From Phycisphaerae bacterium (GTDB lineage: Bacteria > Planctomycetota > Phycisphaerae > Phycisphaerales > Phycisphaeraceae): a stretch of DNA of 64,000 nucleotides. Position 1 is the stretch's first letter. Every line of letters begins with the position of its first letter. Positions 2,582 to 46,292 of this stretch are shown here, piece after piece. The stretch is taken from positions 1 to 64,000 of the forward strand of contig JAUHZU010000010.1 of the NCBI GenBank assembly GCA_030425705.1. The letters run 5' to 3'. The position numbers and the translations under genes were made by a program. The notes beneath the pieces are model-generated. The model worked only from the letters and a program-made list of their open reading frames with translations, was not told the DNA's origin and made no database searches.

Positions 2582-5377
2582 TCAGGCCGCCTTGCTGCCC
2601 CGGCTGCCGACGTACGTGACCGCGCCCAGGAGGACGAGCCCGCCCGTTACGCCGAGCATAAACACCGGGAAGACGATGCCGTGGCTCATGTCCTGCGCGG
2701 GGTTGTAGACGCTCGCCGCGGCGCGGGCGACGGCCTGCTGGGCGCTGCGTTCGGCCTCGAGCGAATCGACGAGTGTCGCGGCCGTGTCGTCGTCGCCGCC
2801 GGACATGACATACAGCGTCAGGTCGCGCAGCTCGTTGGCGTTCAGCGGGTGGACCAGGCCCTGGGGCATCGGCGACAGGTCGTACGGCCCGACCTCCCGG
2901 ACCTCCTCGGCGGGGACGTCGAGCGTCTGGCTCGGGTCGGTCGCGCTGGTGTGCAGGCGGAGCACCGTGTCGTCGTGCAGGACGACACGGCCGACGACCT
3001 TGCGGCCCTCCGCAGTGGTGACGGTGGACCAGGCGTACTGGTCGGTGACCGCCGCGCTGGGGTCGATGATGCCCGCGAGCAGGTCGCGCAGGCCGTAGGT
3101 GCTGCCGACGGTCGTGAGGTCCGGCCCCGCGCTGCCGCCGACGCCCTGGAACCGGTGGCACTGGGCGCACAGCGCGGTCTGGAATAGTTCGGCGCCGCGG
3201 GCGGCGTTGTACCCGGCGGGCCGGTCGAGGACCGCCTCGTAGGCCTCGTCCACGCTCCACGCCCGGCCGGGCCCGCGGGGCGCGGCGTCGGGCCCCAGGG
3301 CCGTCGCGCTGTCGGGCACGATGAGCAGGGCGGCGACGGCCTCCTGCTCCTCGGGGCTGCACGTGGCCAGCGCCTGGGTGCGGATCATGTTGAGGAACCC
3401 GCCGTAGCTGTTGCCGCCGACCGAGCGCGACGCGAGGTTCAGCCAGAGGAAGTAGGCCTGCCGGAGTTCGGGGGTCCAGCCGGTCTTGTGGTTGCGGAGC
3501 AGGAAGGCGTAGTGCAGCGCCTGCACCGGGGGCATCGCGTCGATCATGTTCTTGATGGCGTTGCCGTACTGCGCGTTGCGGGCGATGAGCTCCAGCCACG
3601 CGGGCGGCTCGGGCCGGGTCGCCTGGTTCATGAGGGTGATCGCCCCGTCGACGACGTGCGGGCTGTCGAGGTAGACCAATAGCCGGGCCAGCTCGATGCT
3701 GAGTTGCTCGTCGTCGTGGGGGAAGCGTGCCTCGAAGCGTTGGAGCAGCGTGTCGCGCATCGCCGGGTCGGGCGCCCCCATCCGGCAGAAGGCGAGGACG
3801 TAGACGCGGGTGAGGTCCAGGCGCTGCGCCTCGGTGAGGGCCTTCGCTTCGTGCCGGTTAGCCGCGGCGAGCAGGGCGGGGCGGTCGTCGGCCGAGCCGA
3901 CCCGGGCGAGCGCGAGCAGGGCGTGCGTCGCGGTCACGGCGTCCTGCTCGTCCAGGGCGCGCTGCCGCCAGCGCTCGGCCGGCTGGTGCTCCAGCGCGGT
4001 CCGCGCGGCGAAGCGCACATGCCGGTCGGGGTGGCGCAGCGCCGGCCAGATCGTATCGAGCGCTTCCGCGGGAGCGTCGGGCGTGTGCAGGGCCTCGAGC
4101 GCGTGCCGCCGCTCGGCCTCGGGCGTCGGCGCGGCGGGGCCGGCGCTGGGGGCGGTGTCGGCGTCGCCTTGGTACGTCACGCGGTAGAGCTTCGAGCCCA
4201 GCCGGCGTCCGCCGGTCGTGATGTACATCGCGCCGTCCGTGCCGACGACGGCGTCGGTCAGCGGCAGCGGCGAGCCGGAGAGGAACTCGTGGATGCCCGC
4301 GGTGTAGCTGGCGCCGTCGGGGGCCAGCTCGACCGCATAGATCGTGCCGAAGGTCCAGTCGAGCAGGTACAGCGCATCCTGGTAGCGCGCGGGGAACGCC
4401 GCGCCCGTGCCGAAGAGCACGCCCGTCGGCGAGCCGGGGCCGATGTCCATCACCGCGGGCAGGGAGTCGGGCGTGTACGTCGCCCACTTGCCCGTGCCGC
4501 TGCGCCAGCCGAACTCGCTGCCGCTGACGACGTGGCACACGCGGGTCGGGCGGTACCAGGGCATGCCCATGTCCCACTCCATGTCCGCGTCGAAGGTGAA
4601 CACCTCGCCGTTGCGGTCGACCGCGAGGTCGTACTGGTTGCGGTAGCCGATGCTGATGAGGTCGACCTCGCTCGCGTCGGGGCTGACCTGCAGGACGTAC
4701 CCGCCCGGGGCCATGCGACCCACGGCGTGGCCGTTGGCGTCCCACTCGCGCTGCAGGAGCAGGTCCTCGCCCCAGACGCGCGGGACCCGGCTGTGCGTGA
4801 GGGCGGGCAGGTCGCAGTGGTTGCCGCAGCTCAACAGCAGCGACGCGCCGTCGGGCGCGACAACGATCGCGTGCTGCCCGTGCTCGCCCCCGCCGGGGAT
4901 CGCGAGGATCAGCTCCGGCGCGTCGGGCCGGCCGTCGCCGTCGGGGTCCGCGGCGCGGTACAGCCCCTTGCCCGTGGCCATGATGTAGAGCGCGTCGAAG
5001 GCGTAGCACAGCCCCTGCGCGCCGCCGAGGTTCATGCCCAGCGGCTGAACTTGCGTGGTGCCGTCGCTGCCCAGCGCGGGCGGTGTCACGCGGTAGACCT
5101 CGCCGTACTGGTCCGTGGCGAACAGCGTGCCGCCGGGCCCGGTGCACAGAGCGACCCACGAGCCCTGCGACTCGCCGGGCACGTCGTACAGCACCTCGGC
5201 CTCGAAGCCCGGCAGGAGGCGCAGCCCCAGCGCGTTGGTGTGGTAGGCCGGCCCGTCCGTATCGTCGGCAAGCGCCGCGCCGCCGACAACCACCGCGGCC
5301 ACCCCCAGCACACCCCGCAGCGCCCAAGACAGCCCCGAACGCAGCCCGCGTCGCCTGTTCATCGAGTGATAGATCAT
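2582..5377 (-). CDS. exported PVC-type beta-propeller/HEAT/cytochrome c dehydrogenase-like protein
   Basis: Large periplasmic or membrane-anchored protein of a family expanded in Planctomycetes. Visible parts in order: a signal peptide (hydrophobic LGVAAVVVGGAALA), a sorbosone/glucose-dehydrogenase-like beta-propeller over roughly the first 400 residues (motifs LPGFEAEVLYDVPGE, NGEVFTFDADMEWD), an alpha-helical HEAT-like region, a c-type cytochrome domain with heme motif CAQCH near residue 735 followed by GSAGPDLTTVG, and a C-terminal transmembrane helix (FPVFMLGVTGGLVLLG). It presumably oxidises a sugar-like substrate and passes electrons to its heme; the substrate is unknown. The start at 5377 (931 residues) sits 7 nt behind a -10 hexamer, so the message may be leaderless; an ATG at 5362 (926 residues) is the alternative and gives a more usual signal peptide start. 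Confidence 0.85.
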   Translation of the reverse strand: MIYHSMNRRRGLRSGLSWALRGVLGVAAVVVGGAALADDTDGPAYHTNALGLRLLPGFEAEVLYDVPGESQGSWVALCTGPGGTLFATDQYGEVYRVTPPALGSDGTTQVQPLGMNLGGAQGLCYAFDALYIMATGKGLYRAADPDGDGRPDAPELILAIPGGGEHGQHAIVVAPDGASLLLSCGNHCDLPALTHSRVPRVWGEDLLLQREWDANGHAVGRMAPGGYVLQVSPDASEVDLISIGYRNQYDLAVDRNGEVFTFDADMEWDMGMPWYRPTRVCHVVSGSEFGWRSGTGKWATYTPDSLPAVMDIGPGSPTGVLFGTGAAFPARYQDALYLLDWTFGTIYAVELAPDGASYTAGIHEFLSGSPLPLTDAVVGTDGAMYITTGGRRLGSKLYRVTYQGDADTAPSAGPAAPTPEAERRHALEALHTPDAPAEALDTIWPALRHPDRHVRFAARTALEHQPAERWRQRALDEQDAVTATHALLALARVGSADDRPALLAAANRHEAKALTEAQRLDLTRVYVLAFCRMGAPDPAMRDTLLQRFEARFPHDDEQLSIELARLLVYLDSPHVVDGAITLMNQATRPEPPAWLELIARNAQYGNAIKNMIDAMPPVQALHYAFLLRNHKTGWTPELRQAYFLWLNLASRSVGGNSYGGFLNMIRTQALATCSPEEQEAVAALLIVPDSATALGPDAAPRGPGRAWSVDEAYEAVLDRPAGYNAARGAELFQTALCAQCHRFQGVGGSAGPDLTTVGSTYGLRDLLAGIIDPSAAVTDQYAWSTVTTAEGRKVVGRVVLHDDTVLRLHTSATDPSQTLDVPAEEVREVGPYDLSPMPQGLVHPLNANELRDLTLYVMSGGDDDTAATLVDSLEAERSAQQAVARAAASVYNPAQDMSHGIVFPVFMLGVTGGLVLLGAVTYVGSRGSKAA

Positions 5378-6605: not shown

Positions 6606-6644
6606 TGCCTAGGCCCTAGGCCCTAGGCCCTACCCCTTAGACCC
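6606..6644 (+). repeat. tandem CCTAGGC repeat directly upstream of valS
   Basis: Three 7-nt units CCTAGGC followed by CCCTACCCCTTAGACCCTG end 7 nt before the valS ATG. On the minus strand this reads as G-runs separated by CCTA, a variant of the 8-bp GGGGCCRA repeats near recO and at 46217-46292. No ribosome-binding site is visible between it and the valS start. Confidence 0.6.
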
Positions 6645-6651
6645 TGCCGCC

Positions 6652-9600
6652 ATGACCACCGCCCACACCCCGCCCCCCAGCGCGACCGACCTGCCCCCGC
6701 AGTACGACCCCACCCAGGTCGAGCCCCACGTCCTCGAACGCTACCTCGCGGACAAGGCCTACGCCGCCTCGACCGACGCGGCCGGCGACCCCTACGCGAT
6801 CGTGATCCCCCCGCCCAACGTCACCGCCGCGCTGCACCTGGGCCACGCGCTCAACAACACCTTGCAGGACATCCTCACCCGTGTCCACCGCATGCGCGGC
6901 TGCAACACCCTCTGGATGCCCGGCACCGACCACGCCGGCATCGCCACCCAGACCGTCGTCGACAAGCGCCTGCAAGCGGAAGGCAAGCCCGCGCTCAAAG
7001 AGCACAAGCAGATGGAGCTCGACGGTGAAGACGGCCGGGGGCAGTTCATCGCCCGCGTGACCGACTGGAAAGACGAGTACGAAGCCGTCATCACCAACCA
7101 GCTCAAGCAGATGGGCTGCTCGTGCGACTGGGACCGCCAGCGGTTCACGATGGACGACCAGTGCGCCAAGGCCGTGCGCGAGGCGTTCTTCCAGCTCTTC
7201 AAGGACGGCCTGATCTACCGCGGCAAGCGGCTGGTCAACTGGGACCCGGTGAGCCAGACCGCGCTCGCCGACGATGAAGTCGAGATGGAGACCATCGACG
7301 GGAACTTCTACTACATGAAGTACCCGGTGTGCGATCCCGACGGAAACGAGACCGGCGCGTTCGCGACCGTTGCGACGACGCGGCCCGAGACGATGCTCGG
7401 GGACACGGCCGTGGCCGTGAACCCCGACGACGCCCCGCGCGCCGAACTCATCGGGCAGTTCGTGAAGCTCCCCATCGTGGGCCGCATCATCCCCATTATC
7501 GGCGACGACTACGTCGTCATCCCCGATGAAGACAGCGAGGACGCCAAGGCCAGGATGGCCTCGGGCTTCCTGAAGGTCACCCCCGCGCACGACCCCAACG
7601 ACTACGAGATCGGCCAGCGCCACGGCCTGCCCATCATCAACGTCATGGCCCCCGACGCGTCGATCTCCATCGACCACGGCTGGCCGGCGGAAGAAGCGCC
7701 CGGCGACAACGAGACGCTCAAGCCCTTCCTCGGTTTATCGCGCGAGGAGGCCCGCAAACAGGTCGTGATCTGGTTCAAGGACCACGGCCTGATGCAGGAA
7801 GTGAAGCCGTATCGCCACGCGGTCGGCCACAGCTACCGCAGCCACGTGCCCGTCGAGCCGTACTACACCGACCAGTGGTACGTGAAGGTGACGGATGACC
7901 GCCTGGCCGGCGCGGCCCTGCGCGCGATGGACGCGTCGCAGTACGAGGGCGATCGTGGCGGCGAACCGGGGCCCGGCCTGAAGTTCTACCCCGACCGCTA
8001 CGCCAAGACATTCCAGACCTGGCACGAGAACATCCGTGACTGGTGTATCTCACGGCAACTGTGGTGGGGGCACCGGATTCCGGTGTGGAGTAAACGATGT
8101 GAAAGCAAGCAAGAAGTTACAGAAGCCTTTCACACATTAGATCAATGCTTGAAGCAAGACATTTTGGAAGATCTATTGCAAGGCGATGGTGATTTGGCCA
8201 GTCTGCGTATGATTGATAACAAGACGGGTGAAATTGTTTCTGCCACCGTTTCAGAGTTCAATCATGGCTTGAATGGTGATGTTTCCATTTTCATTTGTTT
8301 GAAGTCTGAAAGCGATATCCACGCGATTGAGCGTAACGGCTTCACCCAAGACCCCGACGTCCTCGACACCTGGTTCTCCTCCGCCCTCTGGCCACTCTCA
8401 ACCCTCGGCTGGCCCGGCGATACCGACGAACTCGCCAAGTGGAACCCGACGTCCGTGCTCTGCACCGCGCGGGAGATCATCACGCTGTGGGTCTCGCGGA
8501 TGGTCATGTTCAATCGCTACTTTAAGGGCGGGGACCTGCCGTTTAGGGATGTGTTCATCCACGCGATGATCCAGGACGGGCACGGGCAGAAGATGTCGAA
8601 GAGCCTGGGCAACGGCGTGGACCCGATGGACATCATCCACAGCCACGGCAGCGACGCCATGCGCTTCACGCTCACCAAGATGACCACCCAGACCCAGGAC
8701 GTCCGCCTGCCCGTGGACATGGTGGACCCGAAGACCGGCGAGACGTTCTCGCCGACCTACATCACCGCGAAGAACGGCTGCAAGGTCGCCGCGCCGGTCC
8801 AGGAACACAACGGCTCGAAGATGGTGTCGTCCTACGGCCTGGCGTCGGGCGAGGCGAAGCCGACCGACGCGATGCCCCTCGCGCGCAACACCAGCGAGAA
8901 GTTCGACGAGGGCCAGCGCTTCGCGAACAAGCTGTGGAACGCGTTCCGCTTCGCGCTGCCGCTGCTTTCGAGTGACGGGGCAAGCGCACGTTCGGCGAAT
9001 GCGGGCTTCGGGCTCGCGGAGAAGTGGGTCCTGAACCAGTTGGGCAAGACGATCGAGACGGCGGACAGGGCGCTCGCCGAGTACCGCTTCAGCGACTACG
9101 CGACGGCGTTGTACGACTTCGTCTGGCGGGACCTGTGCGACTGGTACGTGGAGATCGTGAAGCCGACGGTGAAGGAGAGCCCGGCCCAGCAGCAGGTGCT
9201 GGCGACGTGCCTCGACGCGTCGCTGCGGCTGCTGCACCCGGTGATGCCGTTCATCACCGAGCGGCTGTGGTCGGCGCTGCGGGCGTCGGCGGGCGGGATC
9301 GAGCGGGTGCCCGGCGTGGCGCTGCCCGACAGCGAGCTGCTGATCCATGCGGGCTGGCCGACGGCCGAGGCGTCGCTGCGGGACGCGGAGGCGGAGCGCG
9401 ACTTCGAGCTCTTGCGTTCGATCATCGAGGCGATCCGCAACGCGCGGAGCGTGTACAAGATCCCGCCGCGGCAGGAGGTCGGGGCGACGACCAAGGCCCC
9501 GGCGCACATCGCGCAGCTCATCTTCAACAACCGGGGGATCACGCTCCCGCTGACGCGGTGCGTCGGGCGCGGCGTGGGCCCGAAGATCGATCGGCCGGCC

Positions 9601-9894: not shown

Positions 9895-9925
9895 CGGTCA
9901 CAAGCGGTAGATGAAAGGAGACACG

Positions 9926-10834
9926 ATGCGGCGGATGGTGTGTTGGCTGGTGCTGTGTATCGCGGTGCCCGCGCTGCCGGCTTGGGCTCAGGCGGAGCGT
10001 GATACGCCGCCCACGGCCGAGGAGCTGGGCACGGTCGTCCCGCTGGAGTTCGGCGTGTTGTTTATCCCCGACGCGTTCGACCCGGACGCCGCGGGCGGGC
10101 TGGACCTGCTGATTCACTTCCACGTCGGGCTGGATTTCCTGGCGCGGCAGGTGGTGGACGCGAGGCTGAACGCGGTGATGATCCACATCTCGCCGGGCGG
10201 GTTCAGCTCGGCGTACCGCGTGCCGTTCGAGGAGGACCGCGAGCTGTTCGGCCGGCTGCTGGACGAGGCGCTGGGCCACGTGCGCGGGCGCGGCGATGTC
10301 GCGGACGACGCCGGTTGGCGGCGGGTGAACATCTCGTCGTTCAGCGCGGGCTACGGCGCGGTGCGTGAGCTGCTCCAGGACGACGGCTACGTCGCGCGGA
10401 TCGACGGGCTGGCGCTCTGCGACACGGTGTATGCCGGCTACGTCCAGCAGGGTGGCGTGAACATCCCCAGCCCCGGGCAGGTCGCGCCGTTCATCGCGTT
10501 CGCCCGGCTCGCGGCGCATGAAGACAGCGGCAAGGTGATGGTGATGACGCACAGCTACCTCGAGCCGGGCACCTATGCCGGGACGCACGAGGTAGCGCAG
10601 GCGGTGGTGGACGCGGTCGGCGCGGACGACCACGCGATCGACGAGGAGGGCCCGCAGGGGATGCGCCTGCTCCGCCGGGCCACGCTCGGCCGGCTCACGG
10701 TGATCGGTGTCGAGGGCAACGACGGGCCGGCCCACATGAAGCACCTGCACACCGTCGCGCACTGGCTGGCGATGCTGGACTGGGGTGAAGAAGAGGAAGG
10801 GGACGAGGGGCGCAGGGGCCGAGGGGCCGAGTGA
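9926..10834 (+). CDS. exported alpha/beta-hydrolase-like protein
   Basis: Signal peptide MRRMVCWLVLCIAVPALPAWA predicts export. The body has an alpha/beta-hydrolase look: a possible nucleophile elbow SSFSAGYGA in mid protein, a downstream D/E-rich stretch, and a late histidine in MKHLHTVAHWL. No substrate can be assigned. The ATG at 9926 is preferred to one at 9911, because AAAGGAG at 9914-9920 would be its ribosome-binding site, giving 302 residues. The last 15 residues (EEEEGDEGRRGRGAE) are encoded by the GGGGCCGA tandem repeat, so the C terminus was probably extended or changed by that repeat. Transcribed after valS in the same direction. Confidence 0.6.
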   Translation: MRRMVCWLVLCIAVPALPAWAQAERDTPPTAEELGTVVPLEFGVLFIPDAFDPDAAGGLDLLIHFHVGLDFLARQVVDARLNAVMIHISPGGFSSAYRVPFEEDRELFGRLLDEALGHVRGRGDVADDAGWRRVNISSFSAGYGAVRELLQDDGYVARIDGLALCDTVYAGYVQQGGVNIPSPGQVAPFIAFARLAAHEDSGKVMVMTHSYLEPGTYAGTHEVAQAVVDAVGADDHAIDEEGPQGMRLLRRATLGRLTVIGVEGNDGPAHMKHLHTVAHWLAMLDWGEEEEGDEGRRGRGAE

Positions 10835-10936
10835 TGCAGCGCGCCGTGTGATCGGCGGCTAGCCGGTTGCATGCGCAACGATGCCGCGGTTCCCCGGCCC
10901 GCCTGTCCCCTTGGCCCCTTAGCCCCTCGGCCCCTA
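10797..10936. repeat. inverted pair of tandem GGGGCCRA repeats (REPIN-like)
   Basis: On the plus strand, 10800-10831 holds four 8-nt units (GGGGACGA, GGGGCGCA, GGGGCCGA, GGGGCCGA). The complement of 10905-10936 holds another four (GGGGCCGA, GGGGCTAA, GGGGCCAA, GGGGAC). The two arms are inverted and flank about 73 bp without a gene. Each arm has four G4 runs with 4-nt loops, so either could form a G-quadruplex. The downstream arm ends exactly at the -10 box of recO. A similar pair is at 46217-46292. Confidence 0.65.
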
Positions 10937-10940
10937 CACT
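10935..10940 (+). promoter_or_regulatory. -10 hexamer of recO (leaderless arrangement)
   Basis: TACACT lies 6 nt (six C) before the recO ATG, with no Shine-Dalgarno. The 19 bases from CCCCTACACT through the ATG are identical to those before the methyltransferase start at 46208. Confidence 0.5.
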
Positions 10941-10946
10941 CCCCCC

Positions 10947-11744
10947 ATGCCACGCTTCAAGGACCAGGCGATCTGCCTCCGCGACCTGGACTGGTCCGAG
11001 ACCAGCCAGCTGGTCGTGCTGCTCACACGGGACCACGGCAAGGTGCGCGGGCTGGCCAAGGGCTCCCGCCGGCAGAGCCCGTCGGCGATCGCGCGGTTCT
11101 CCGGCGGGATCAACCTGCTCAACCGCGGGGAGGCGGTCGTCACCACGCGGCGGAACACGCAGCTCGCGGCGGTGACGGAGTGGGACCTGCAGGACGACCA
11201 CTATGCGCTGCGGCTGGGCCTGCGGGCGCAGCGGCTGGCGATGTACGCGGCGGACCTGTGCAACGCGCTGCTGGCCGACGAGGATGCGCACCCCGGGACG
11301 TTCGAGGCGCTGCGTGTGTTCCTCGCGGCGTTGTGTGCCCCGGCGGGAGGGTCGGCCGAGCGGGCGCTGCTGGCGTTCCAGTGGGCGGTGCTGACCGACT
11401 GCGGGTTCCGACCGGAGTTGGACCGCGACGTCGAGGCGGACGGCCCGCTGGACGCGCTGGGCAAGGCCCCGGCCTACACGTTCGACCCGAAGCTGGGAGG
11501 GTTCACGACGCGGGACGGCGTGGGCGACTCGCCCTGGCGGGTCCGGCGGGGGACGCTGGGGGTCTTGCGCCGGGTCGCGGCCGTCGGCGGGGCAGGAGCG
11601 GCCGACCGCGGCGACGAGGCGGGGGTCGGGCGGGCCAACCGGCTGCTGTGTGCCTACGCCCGGGTGATCCTGGACCAGGAGCTGCCCACGATGCCGGCGG
11701 TGCTCGGGCCCGGGGCGGGGCCGCGTGCCTCGGCGGGGGGCTGA
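10947..11744 (+). CDS. recO: DNA repair protein RecO
   Basis: Recombination mediator that loads RecA with RecF/RecR and anneals strands. The 265-residue protein begins with the OB-fold typical of RecO (FKDQAICLRDLDWSETSQLV, then TRDHGKVRGLAKGSRR) and continues with a helical C-terminal region (YAADLCNALLADEDAHPG; FQWAVLTDCGFRP). The zinc-finger cysteines of some RecO proteins are reduced to single cysteines here. The start is placed 6 nt behind TACACT, implying a leaderless message. It is monocistronic by spacing. Confidence 0.88.
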   Translation: MPRFKDQAICLRDLDWSETSQLVVLLTRDHGKVRGLAKGSRRQSPSAIARFSGGINLLNRGEAVVTTRRNTQLAAVTEWDLQDDHYALRLGLRAQRLAMYAADLCNALLADEDAHPGTFEALRVFLAALCAPAGGSAERALLAFQWAVLTDCGFRPELDRDVEADGPLDALGKAPAYTFDPKLGGFTTRDGVGDSPWRVRRGTLGVLRRVAAVGGAGAADRGDEAGVGRANRLLCAYARVILDQELPTMPAVLGPGAGPRASAGG

Positions 11745-45472: not shown

Positions 45473-45512
45473 GGTGGGTATCGCTCGCGGACTCGCTCCA
45501 CCCACCCTACGT
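45473..45512. terminator. possible bidirectional hairpin between gyrB and methyltransferase gene
   Basis: AGGGTGGGT/ACCCACCCT, 9-bp stem with a 20-nt loop, between the converging genes; no T-run on either side. Confidence 0.4.
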
Positions 45513-46208
45513 TCCGAGGTAGAAGTTGGTTTCGAGTCGGGCGTCGGTGGGATGCTTCAGGAACCCGCCATCGTAGTCCTTGGTTTTCTTGAGCAGCAGG
45601 AACATGCCCCAGGCCATGCCGGGGAGCAGGCCGGCCAGGGGTTTGGCGAGCGGGGCGGGGAAGGGGTAGAAGTTGCTGCCGCCGCGTGCCTTCAACTTGT
45701 AGCCGCCGGGAAAGCAGGTCTCTAAGAGCTTCAGAAAGTCGTGCTTCGTGTAGCCGCGGACGTGGGCGCTGTGGTTCTGGATCACGCTGGGTTGTCGGCC
45801 AACCGCCAGCAGCAGCCGGTTGTGCAGCGACCCGAGGTTGGGGACGCCGACGATGAGGTGCCCGCCGACGGGCAGGACGCGCGTGACTTCGTGCAGGACC
45901 CAGAAGACTTCTTTGACGTGCTCGAGGATCTGGTTGGCGATGACGACACCGACCGTGCCGTCGTCGAAGGGGAGTTTGTCGCGTTCGAGGTTGAGGTCGT
46001 GGGTGGCGATGTCCTGACCGCGGAGTTCCCGGGCGTACTGCTCGAAGCACTCGACGCCGTGGAGCTGCGCCCCGGGGCAGGCATCGCGGGCGGCGCGCAG
46101 GTCGTCGCCGTGCCCCGCGCCCAGGTCGAGCGCGGCTTGGAACGGCGCGATGTCGCGGAGGTAGCGCGCGACGAGGTGTCGGCCGTAGTTGAGTCGGCGG
46201 TCGATCAT
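45507..46208 (-). CDS. SAM-dependent methyltransferase
   Basis: 233 residues: DLGAGHGDDLRAARDACPGA (motif I), LHGVECFEQYARELRG, HDLNLERDKLPFDDGTVGVV and NQILEHVKEVFWVLHEVTRV (a LEH motif typical of Methyltransf_11), then NLGSLHNRLLLAVGRQPSV. C-terminal Lys/Gly-rich tail. Resembles methylases of cell-envelope sugar or lipid pathways; substrate unknown. Start chosen 6 nt behind TACACT, identical in arrangement to recO; no ribosome-binding site. Confidence 0.8.
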   Translation of the reverse strand: MIDRRLNYGRHLVARYLRDIAPFQAALDLGAGHGDDLRAARDACPGAQLHGVECFEQYARELRGQDIATHDLNLERDKLPFDDGTVGVVIANQILEHVKEVFWVLHEVTRVLPVGGHLIVGVPNLGSLHNRLLLAVGRQPSVIQNHSAHVRGYTKHDFLKLLETCFPGGYKLKARGGSNFYPFPAPLAKPLAGLLPGMAWGMFLLLKKTKDYDGGFLKHPTDARLETNFYLGT

Positions 46209-46214
46209 GGGGGG

Positions 46215-46220
46215 AGTGTA
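46215..46220 (-). promoter_or_regulatory. -10 hexamer of methyltransferase gene (leaderless arrangement)
   Basis: TACACT on the minus strand, 6 C residues before the ATG; the whole CCCCTACACTCCCCCCATG block equals that of recO. Confidence 0.5.
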
Positions 46221-46292
46221 GGGGGAAGGGGCCAAGGGGCCAAGGGGCCGAGTGTGGCGCAAAGCACTTGACCCCTTGGCCCCTCGGCCCCA
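46217..46292. repeat. inverted pair of tandem GGGGCCRA repeats
   Basis: 46219-46252 on the plus strand holds GGGGGAA, GGGGCCAA, GGGGCCAA, GGGGCCGA; the complement of 46269-46292 holds GGGGCCGA, GGGGCCAA, GGGGTCAA. The arms are about 16 nt apart. Four G-runs with 2-4-nt loops make the first arm able to form a G-quadruplex. This is the same family as 10797-10936. Confidence 0.65.

Follow-up and report, generated by a model that had tools for sequence, protein, structure and literature searches.

Dispersed palindromes of 8-bp tandem units in Phycisphaerales genomes: a probable non-autonomous mobile element that persists in frame within conserved genes

INTRODUCTION

Palindromic insertions that lie in frame have already been reported from Rickettsia and some other genomes. 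The Rickettsia palindromic elements (RPEs), as presented in the passages of one review that deal with them, are dispersed sequences of about 150 bp that sit in frame in unrelated conserved genes, with a recurring peptide (PMC10969869). A 2013 study of intragenic GTAG/CGTC REPs places many of them in DNA synthesis and repair genes and describes tagged REPs in Planctomycetes, as well as REPs whose position in recB is roughly shared by two Xanthomonas species, in the sections considered here (PMC3733652). In the corresponding excerpts of Rehm 2015, G-rich heptamers of Xanthomonas and Nostoc form small arrays in which four units are preferred, and they form quadruplexes in vitro; the Xanthomonas heptamers often occur as inverted pairs, and heptamers are under-represented in coding regions (PMC4692102).

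Here we describe palindromic elements in a 64,000-nucleotide stretch of contig JAUHZU010000010.1 from a Phycisphaeraceae bacterium (the window), in the rest of its genome, and in its relatives. Like RPEs as those passages portray them, they are dispersed, in-frame palindromes in conserved genes with a recurring peptide, but they are usually about 80 to 120 bp long, consist of 8-bp tandem units, and belong to Planctomycetota, the likeness being one of behavior. With the GTAG/CGTC REPs, as far as the cited sections describe those, they share palindromes within genes, repair genes included, and they differ in that the tags are mostly missing, the arms are unit arrays, and a single MutS site holds six unit sequences. 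Short G-rich units, small arrays, and (in Xanthomonas) inverted pairs also recall the G-rich heptamers of the excerpted report, whereas the units here are 8 bp long, a loop motif is shared, and in-frame insertion is frequent. The best fit would be an element that works like an RPE and has arms like the inverted G-rich heptamer pairs of Xanthomonas. In the openly licensed PubMed Central literature we found no report of palindromic in-frame insertions in Phycisphaerae or Phycisphaerales. Described here are their occurrence in Phycisphaerales, with about 20 in-frame copies in one genome and many of these in replication, repair, and translation genes, and the reuse of one exact MutS position by different hairpin units across genera. 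It thus becomes testable whether cells put up with such insertions as junk or repeatedly gain new protein loops from them, and what enzyme mobilizes hairpins whose sequence changes.

RESULTS AND DISCUSSION

A palindrome of 8-bp units adjoins recO

The recO gene occupies positions 10947 to 11744 of the window on the forward strand (NCBIfam TIGR00613, 63.5 bits against a cut-off of 48.7) and follows an open reading frame (ORF) of 307 aa on the same strand (9911 to 10834), for which searches of Pfam at 1e-5 and of NCBIfam at 0.001 gave no match. An initial annotation, made from the sequence of the window, had described 8-bp units repeated four times on each of two opposed arms next to the recO start. 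Direct reading bears this out: the left arm (10798 to 10831, forward) comprises four units and reads AGGGGACG AGGGGCGC AGGGGCCG AGGGGCCG AG, the right arm (10907 to 10935, forward) reads CCCCTTGG CCCCTTAG CCCCTCGG CCCC T, and each arm has the four G4 runs claimed for it. A small correction concerns the units, which prove degenerate, with AGGGGACG and AGGGGCGC each standing once in the left arm. As had been proposed, the final residues of the upstream ORF are encoded in the left arm; the ORF's stop codon TGA (10832 to 10834) follows that arm immediately and opens a loop (10832 to 10906) whose 75 nt are unusually long for the family. The right arm runs into TACACT (10935 to 10940, forward), CCCCCC (10941 to 10946), and the recO ATG at 10947, coordinates that agree with those annotated; TACACT, 6 nt 5' of the ATG, is a putative −10 box of a leaderless promoter and is like the box found in relatives without the element.

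Chance controls were passed by this arrangement. The arms at 10798 to 10826 and 10907 to 10935 are 86% complementary across 29 nt with a spacing of 80 nt, and the predicted RNA fold of 10790 to 10950 has −97 kcal/mol (z = −4.69), which none of 200 shuffles equaled. In the window, CCCCTHRGCCCCT with at most one mismatch has 10 matches versus 0.74 expected, a number reached in none of 100 shuffles; one match lies at 6633 and four lie in a second copy at 46215 to 46292 on the reverse strand. This copy has arms at 46228 to 46254 and 46265 to 46291, followed on the minus strand by CCCCCTACACTCCCCCC-ATG, and it ends in CCCCTACACTCCCCCC-ATG, identical to the recO side; the gene whose start it abuts (45510 to 46208, reverse) encodes a class I SAM methyltransferase (Pfam Methyltransf_11, 41.6 bits). 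When the window was scanned for inverted repeats under more stringent settings, the 46-kb copy alone was detected and the recO copy was missed; six simulated windows yielded nothing. As a separate observation, a 7-bp tandem CCTAGGC (3.6 copies) followed by CCCCTTAGACCCT occupies 6608 to 6645, directly 5' of the valS start at 6652, and is possibly another unit family present as a single arm.

The element belongs to a dispersed family

The sequence is repeated, palindromic, and dispersed. In the genome that contains the window (G000; 4.1 Mb in 21 contigs), CCCCTNNGCCCCTNNGCCCC with at most one mismatch has 33 matches versus 2 for the reversed control, and these fall at 14 separate places, one of which (C13:40774) looks like chance. 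A covariance model built from 17 aligned copies (7 from G000, 9 from its congener G001, and 1 from L068, labeled "uncultured Algisphaera sp.") was searched against G000 and 36 relatives at E ≤ 0.01 and matched 9 of the 37 genomes. It located 10 loci in G000 (19 rows over both strands), 38 in G001 (71 rows), 7 and 9 of which, respectively, are the model's own building copies, and 21 in G010, another genus within the same family (35 rows); the six other matching genomes have one to three rows each. In G002, G003, and G004, of the same genus as G000, there are 1, 2, and 1 rows. The initial annotation had allowed for a unit confined to the few copies seen in the window; with 10 loci in G000 and 38 in G001, it is not.

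The family build is (GGGGCCRA)2-4 AAGTG - loop - CACTYGG (CCCCTYGG)2-3, and the consensus has a direction, running from a unit array through AAGTG, a variable loop, and CGCAACACTYGG to the inverted array. The commonest 5' end, GGAAGKGG, is found in 21 of 47 copies, and 17 of the 47 share a loop motif that reads GCARCACTYGG, CAACACTCGG, or GCAACAC. C-type sister elements in G001 have AGTGGCCR units and inner ends of the same kind as the A-type. Such arrays might have grown in place, with a G-rich 8-bp repeat and its inverted copy expanding through slippage and fold-back repair and no transposition involved. Growth of this kind would suit the varying unit number, the differences between adjacent units, arms that, compared by eye, are not mirrored unit for unit, and the occurrence of different units at the same site in different genomes; for Xanthomonas, the excerpted report counts 70 inverted heptamer pairs in one genome and 75 in another (PMC4692102). 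It would not, however, give inner ends (AAGTG / CGCAACACTCGG) that are common to many copies at unrelated loci, and we consider it unlikely. We favor, at a probability of about 0.78, a non-autonomous palindromic mobile element that is dispersed through the genome and persists in genes, in RNA genes, and between genes.

Because the arm registers slide, no more than 14 base pairs entered the model, and any array palindrome rich in GC might match it; we take its matches in G010, where 18 of 21 loci were read, and those in Deltaproteobacteria MAGs as relatives by architecture and not as proven homologues. The genomes behind six named loci have 5, 35, 8, and 3 rows (planctomycete MAGs) and 36 and 32 rows (Deltaproteobacteria/Desulfobacterales MAGs); on the same terms, these matches suggest that array palindromes extend beyond one order. 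A contig scan for CCCCTYGGCCCCTYGGCCCC, which is not a census, gave at least 114 stretches; a crude count found clear palindromes in 2 of the 114 listed (L068 and L105), and among the 24 read in context, L064, L074, and L082 look palindromic and had been missed by the crude count. In these three, from the Deltaproteobacteria MAG NC_groundwater_1496, the GGGGCCRA/GGGGTCGA arrays are palindromic and their flanks are nearly identical on several contigs, as if each array were contained in a longer element that is itself repeated.

Copies lie in frame within conserved genes

By six-frame reading, 26 of 48 copies are in frame within genes (21 of 38 loci in G001 and 5 of 10 in G000), and the hosts of 23 of these were identified with Pfam (18 of 21 and 5 of 5, respectively). 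Hosts in G001 are priA (twice), mutS, an HSP70 gene, acsA, leuS, valS, ruvB, gltB, a SNF2 helicase gene, nadA, atpG, tgt, purL, rarA/mgsA, queG, and putA, the last with one arm only; four in-frame loci lie in three acetyltransferase-like genes, and at 3395192, 4395606, and 4396071, where hosts have no Pfam match, the in-frame call comes from long open frames. Those in G000 are queG, mutS, ruvB, mfd, and priA. Among the other G000 loci, one is in the RNase P RNA and three are between genes (recO, 46 kb, and rsmD); the tenth locus, C12:42132, is weak (E = 0.002) and outside this reading. The model missed half or degraded copies in two G000 genes, putA and, at a second place, mutS. Farther afield, related units are in frame in genes for a class-III aminotransferase and CTP synthase in G010 (18 of 21 loci read), and, among named genomes, full copies occur in the MutS of L068, a protein identified from its TGPNMAGK motif and by alignment (the genus Algisphaera belongs to Phycisphaerales), and in the DnaE of Phycisphaerales 7-NCT_044 (L105), with single arms in DnaE of CSMAG_2420 (L161) and asparagine synthase of Bin_15R (L149).

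Congeners differ in which sites are filled, and the same sites are used in several genomes. The valS site (STDAAGDP; 6769 to 6792, forward) is empty in the window and filled in frame in G001, and A-type elements are absent at recO and ruvB in G002 and G003. Six sites are common to G000 and G001 (ruvB, priA, mutS, rsmD, recO, and putA), so many copies are old, which counts against the mobile-element reading as far as present-day movement is concerned.

The best reading is an RPE/MITE-like element with mostly stop-free arms that are tolerated as protein loops or RNA helices. Copies would move as DNA, by way of fold-back single strands and a transposase acting in trans. Because the arms carry few stops, a copy of net length 3n can persist in a gene, where it would remain as a Gly/Ala/Pro-rich loop (GAEGPRGQ...QHSAPRPLGPSAPS) that is presumably translated, with selection filtering the insertions. 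In an RNA gene the copy would form a longer helix, as in RNase P P12, and elsewhere it would lie between genes. At recO it lies between the end of the upstream ORF and the leaderless −10-like box, so that, on this reading, the upstream protein took its C terminus from one arm and the other arm became the DNA 5' of the −10 box. The position of hairpins within highly conserved domains could instead point to an intron- or bypass-like insert, excised from the mRNA or passed over during translation; the frame, however, is kept across the insert and in-frame copies are more open, neither of which splicing or bypassing needs, and we find this barely credible.

Two further features of G001 genes were seen. 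Its PriA (L034) contains, in addition to the two A-type inserts, a third one with units of a different type (QWRMADGGWRMEIGE...PPSAIAHRPSN). Palindromes in its acetyltransferase-like genes (L043 and L044, the latter at G001:C1:4394000-4398000) include near-identical C-type copies that stand 465 bp apart in one frame, as if these genes collected them.

In-frame copies are biased toward the sense orientation

In 25 of the 26 in-frame copies the model's better-scoring strand runs along the gene, the exception being gltB with a margin of 1.6 bits. A fair coin would give this at 4e-7, a value that is too generous because 11 of the 26 built and oriented the model and several are orthologous or near-identical pairs; among the 15 copies outside the model, 14 are sense (5e-4). 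The 21 in-frame G001 copies have open frames in 42 of 63 cases on the sense strand and in 38 of 63 on the antisense strand, compared with 15 of 51 and 18 of 51 for the 17 other G001 copies. As antisense frames are nearly as open, random insertion followed by stop filtering alone leaves the sense bias unexplained, and this counts against the mobile-element reading. Both selection for hydrophilic loops and transcription-coupled insertion are possible sources of the bias. In rnpB, which encodes no protein, the copy has its better score in the antisense direction (98.9 versus 86.9 bits). Across four orthologous pairs, a small sample, substitutions number 9 of 107 in the G/C runs, 13 of 73 in the variable unit part, and 38 of 171 elsewhere.

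The family and the REP/REPIN class

The initial annotation had called the element REP/REPIN-type and pointed to a RAYT gene as a check. A dispersed palindromic repeat it is, and published REPs within repair genes (PMC3733652, in the sections cited above) give the comparison some force. True REPs or REPINs would be GTAG-tagged palindromes moved by a RAYT (Y1) transposase. GTAG does stand next to an arm in 8 of 47 copies, both window copies among them, and Y1_Tnp (PF01797) matches exist in G000 (one) and G001 (three), one of them 2.4 kb from the one-armed putA copy, the nearest known copy, which is just outside the fetched stretch. Against this, 39 of 47 copies have no GTAG at the arm, and the commonest 5' end, in 21 of 47, is GGAAGKGG. 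Nor do the copies qualify as CGTC repeats: 14 of 47 have CGTC or GACG anywhere within the outermost 18 nt at one end or the other. No arm was found within the fetched 2.3 to 2.8 kb on either side of the four Y1 loci, and Y1 matches are equally frequent in G002 to G004 (2 each), yet these genomes have one or two model rows each. Because the GTAG tag and the flanking transposase were tested for and not found to mark the family, we do not file it as REP/REPIN, a membership that we regard as quite improbable. The search for a partner transposon covered PF01797; a RAYT origin, examined through this search and the flank check, was set aside, and the Y1 loci, none of them tied to the family by an arm in the fetched flanks, also count against the mobile-element reading. 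Nor do the copies fit the G-rich heptamers, with a 7-nt unit and mostly noncoding positions, as the unit has 8 nt and 21 of 38 G001 copies are in frame. It is RPE-like behavior that they display, as a dispersed palindrome with 26 in-frame copies in unrelated genes of G000 and G001.

The −10-like box at recO does not depend on the element

The element had also been proposed to carry, or to have become, a promoter. Of 23 recO loci, 19 starts were located, G000 and G001 included, and the 4 others were left out. TAnnnT lies 4 to 8 nt before the recO start at 10 of the 19, 8 of which have no element in the 90 nt upstream. G045, from another family, has TACACT at recO and no element, and G010, outside the 19 counted, has TACCAT-N6-ATG. 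Since the −10-like box is present at 8 recO starts without the element, the element did not create it, and the promoter proposal is not supported. The element adjoins a −10-like box that is independent of it, with an effect on expression conceivable. In the window, TAnnnT occurs 4 to 8 nt before an ATG that opens a frame of at least 100 aa at nine genes (a count with no chance control), a hint that many transcripts of this genome may be leaderless; putative −10 boxes of this form include those at 5377 (−), 32215 (+), 40428 (−), 60289 (−), and 61835 (+).

Selection for a device at gene starts such as that of recO, be it a promoter, a quadruplex, or a terminator, would agree with the strong hairpin, with the G4 runs in both arms, and with the arms that abut −10-like boxes at several starts: recO and rsmD in both G000 and G001, the 46-kb gene of the window, and in G001 a gene named cinA by eye and the gene at 1819986. 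Copies at starts are nevertheless a minority, with 26 of 48 in frame inside genes and one in an RNA gene. The presence of the box at recO starts without the element weighs against such a device as well. C-type units have no run of more than 2 G, and one C-type element occupies the place in queG where G000 has an A-type, so that a quadruplex function, too, appears weakened; no T run was found 3' of the hairpin on the recO side. A device selected at gene starts thus seems very unlikely, and the mobile element remains our preferred reading.

The same sites hold different hairpins across genera

The site just before Walker A was readable in 31 MutS proteins (30 genomes plus L068), and in 7 of the 31 it holds hairpin arrays with six unit sequences: GGGGCCRA (G000 and L068), GTGAACA-like (G001), CGGGTNT (G010), GGGATTN (G012), GTGATGA (G013), and GGGGTCT-like (G018). 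Fold z values of the seven range from −4.0 to −8.6 against 100 mononucleotide shuffles. The G000 and L068 proteins are only 65% identical, yet both have GGGGCCRA. Linkers of at least 45 nt that are non-palindromic (z, −1.6 to 1.3) occur in G005, G008, G009, G011, G014, G038, G040, G044, and G048, and the remaining 15 of 31 are short. Relative to chain 7ou2_A the insertion is clean, with residues 609 and 610 flanking 33 extra residues. The RuvB insert is flanked by residues 209 and 214 of chain 6blb_A. Among 17 of 24 RuvB linkers that were readable (the other 7 are not counted as empty), G000 (z = −4.0) and G001 (z = −7.3) hold the A-type, G013 a different palindrome (z = −9.0), and G002 a small hairpin with 11-bp arms (z = −3.5) and no unit array; four others are long and non-palindromic (z, −0.7 to 1.7), and nine are 30 to 33 nt.

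The class A RNase P RNA of G000 (241.6 bits) has the element as an insert in P12. This RNA was matched in 28 of 31 genomes, with P12 readable in 15 of the 28 and the other 13 not counted as empty; unit arrays are present in G000 (A-type), G001, G004, G013, where the unit GTGATGA is the same as in MutS, and G045, and P12 of G003 has a long hairpin with no clear units. Cyanobacterial STRR sequences are direct heptamer arrays within the RNase P RNA gene and thus resemble the P12 arrays as short tandem units in this RNA; here an inverted pair lengthens P12. One place in QueG holds the A-type in G000 and the C-type in G001. Unit families were told apart by sequence reading, and the reuse of sites is given without a statistic.

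Tentatively, and with well under even odds, we suggest that Phycisphaerales and perhaps others (Desulfobacterota) harbor a class of "array palindromes" with 7- or 8-bp units that turn over between genera, whose sites are reused (the MutS loop before Walker A, the RuvB linker, RNase P P12, and QueG) and whose mobilization is dedicated and possibly coupled to transcription. If so, dedicated mobilization would account for the shared sites and the sense bias (25 of 26), and array palindromes would be a repeated route by which flexible loops are added to bacterial core proteins. As a further observation, G007, of the same family as G000, has another 8-bp tandem, mostly CCCCGCTT, whose 29 matches are spread over nine places (e.g., C1:1212324-1212391 and C1:2584834-2584917).
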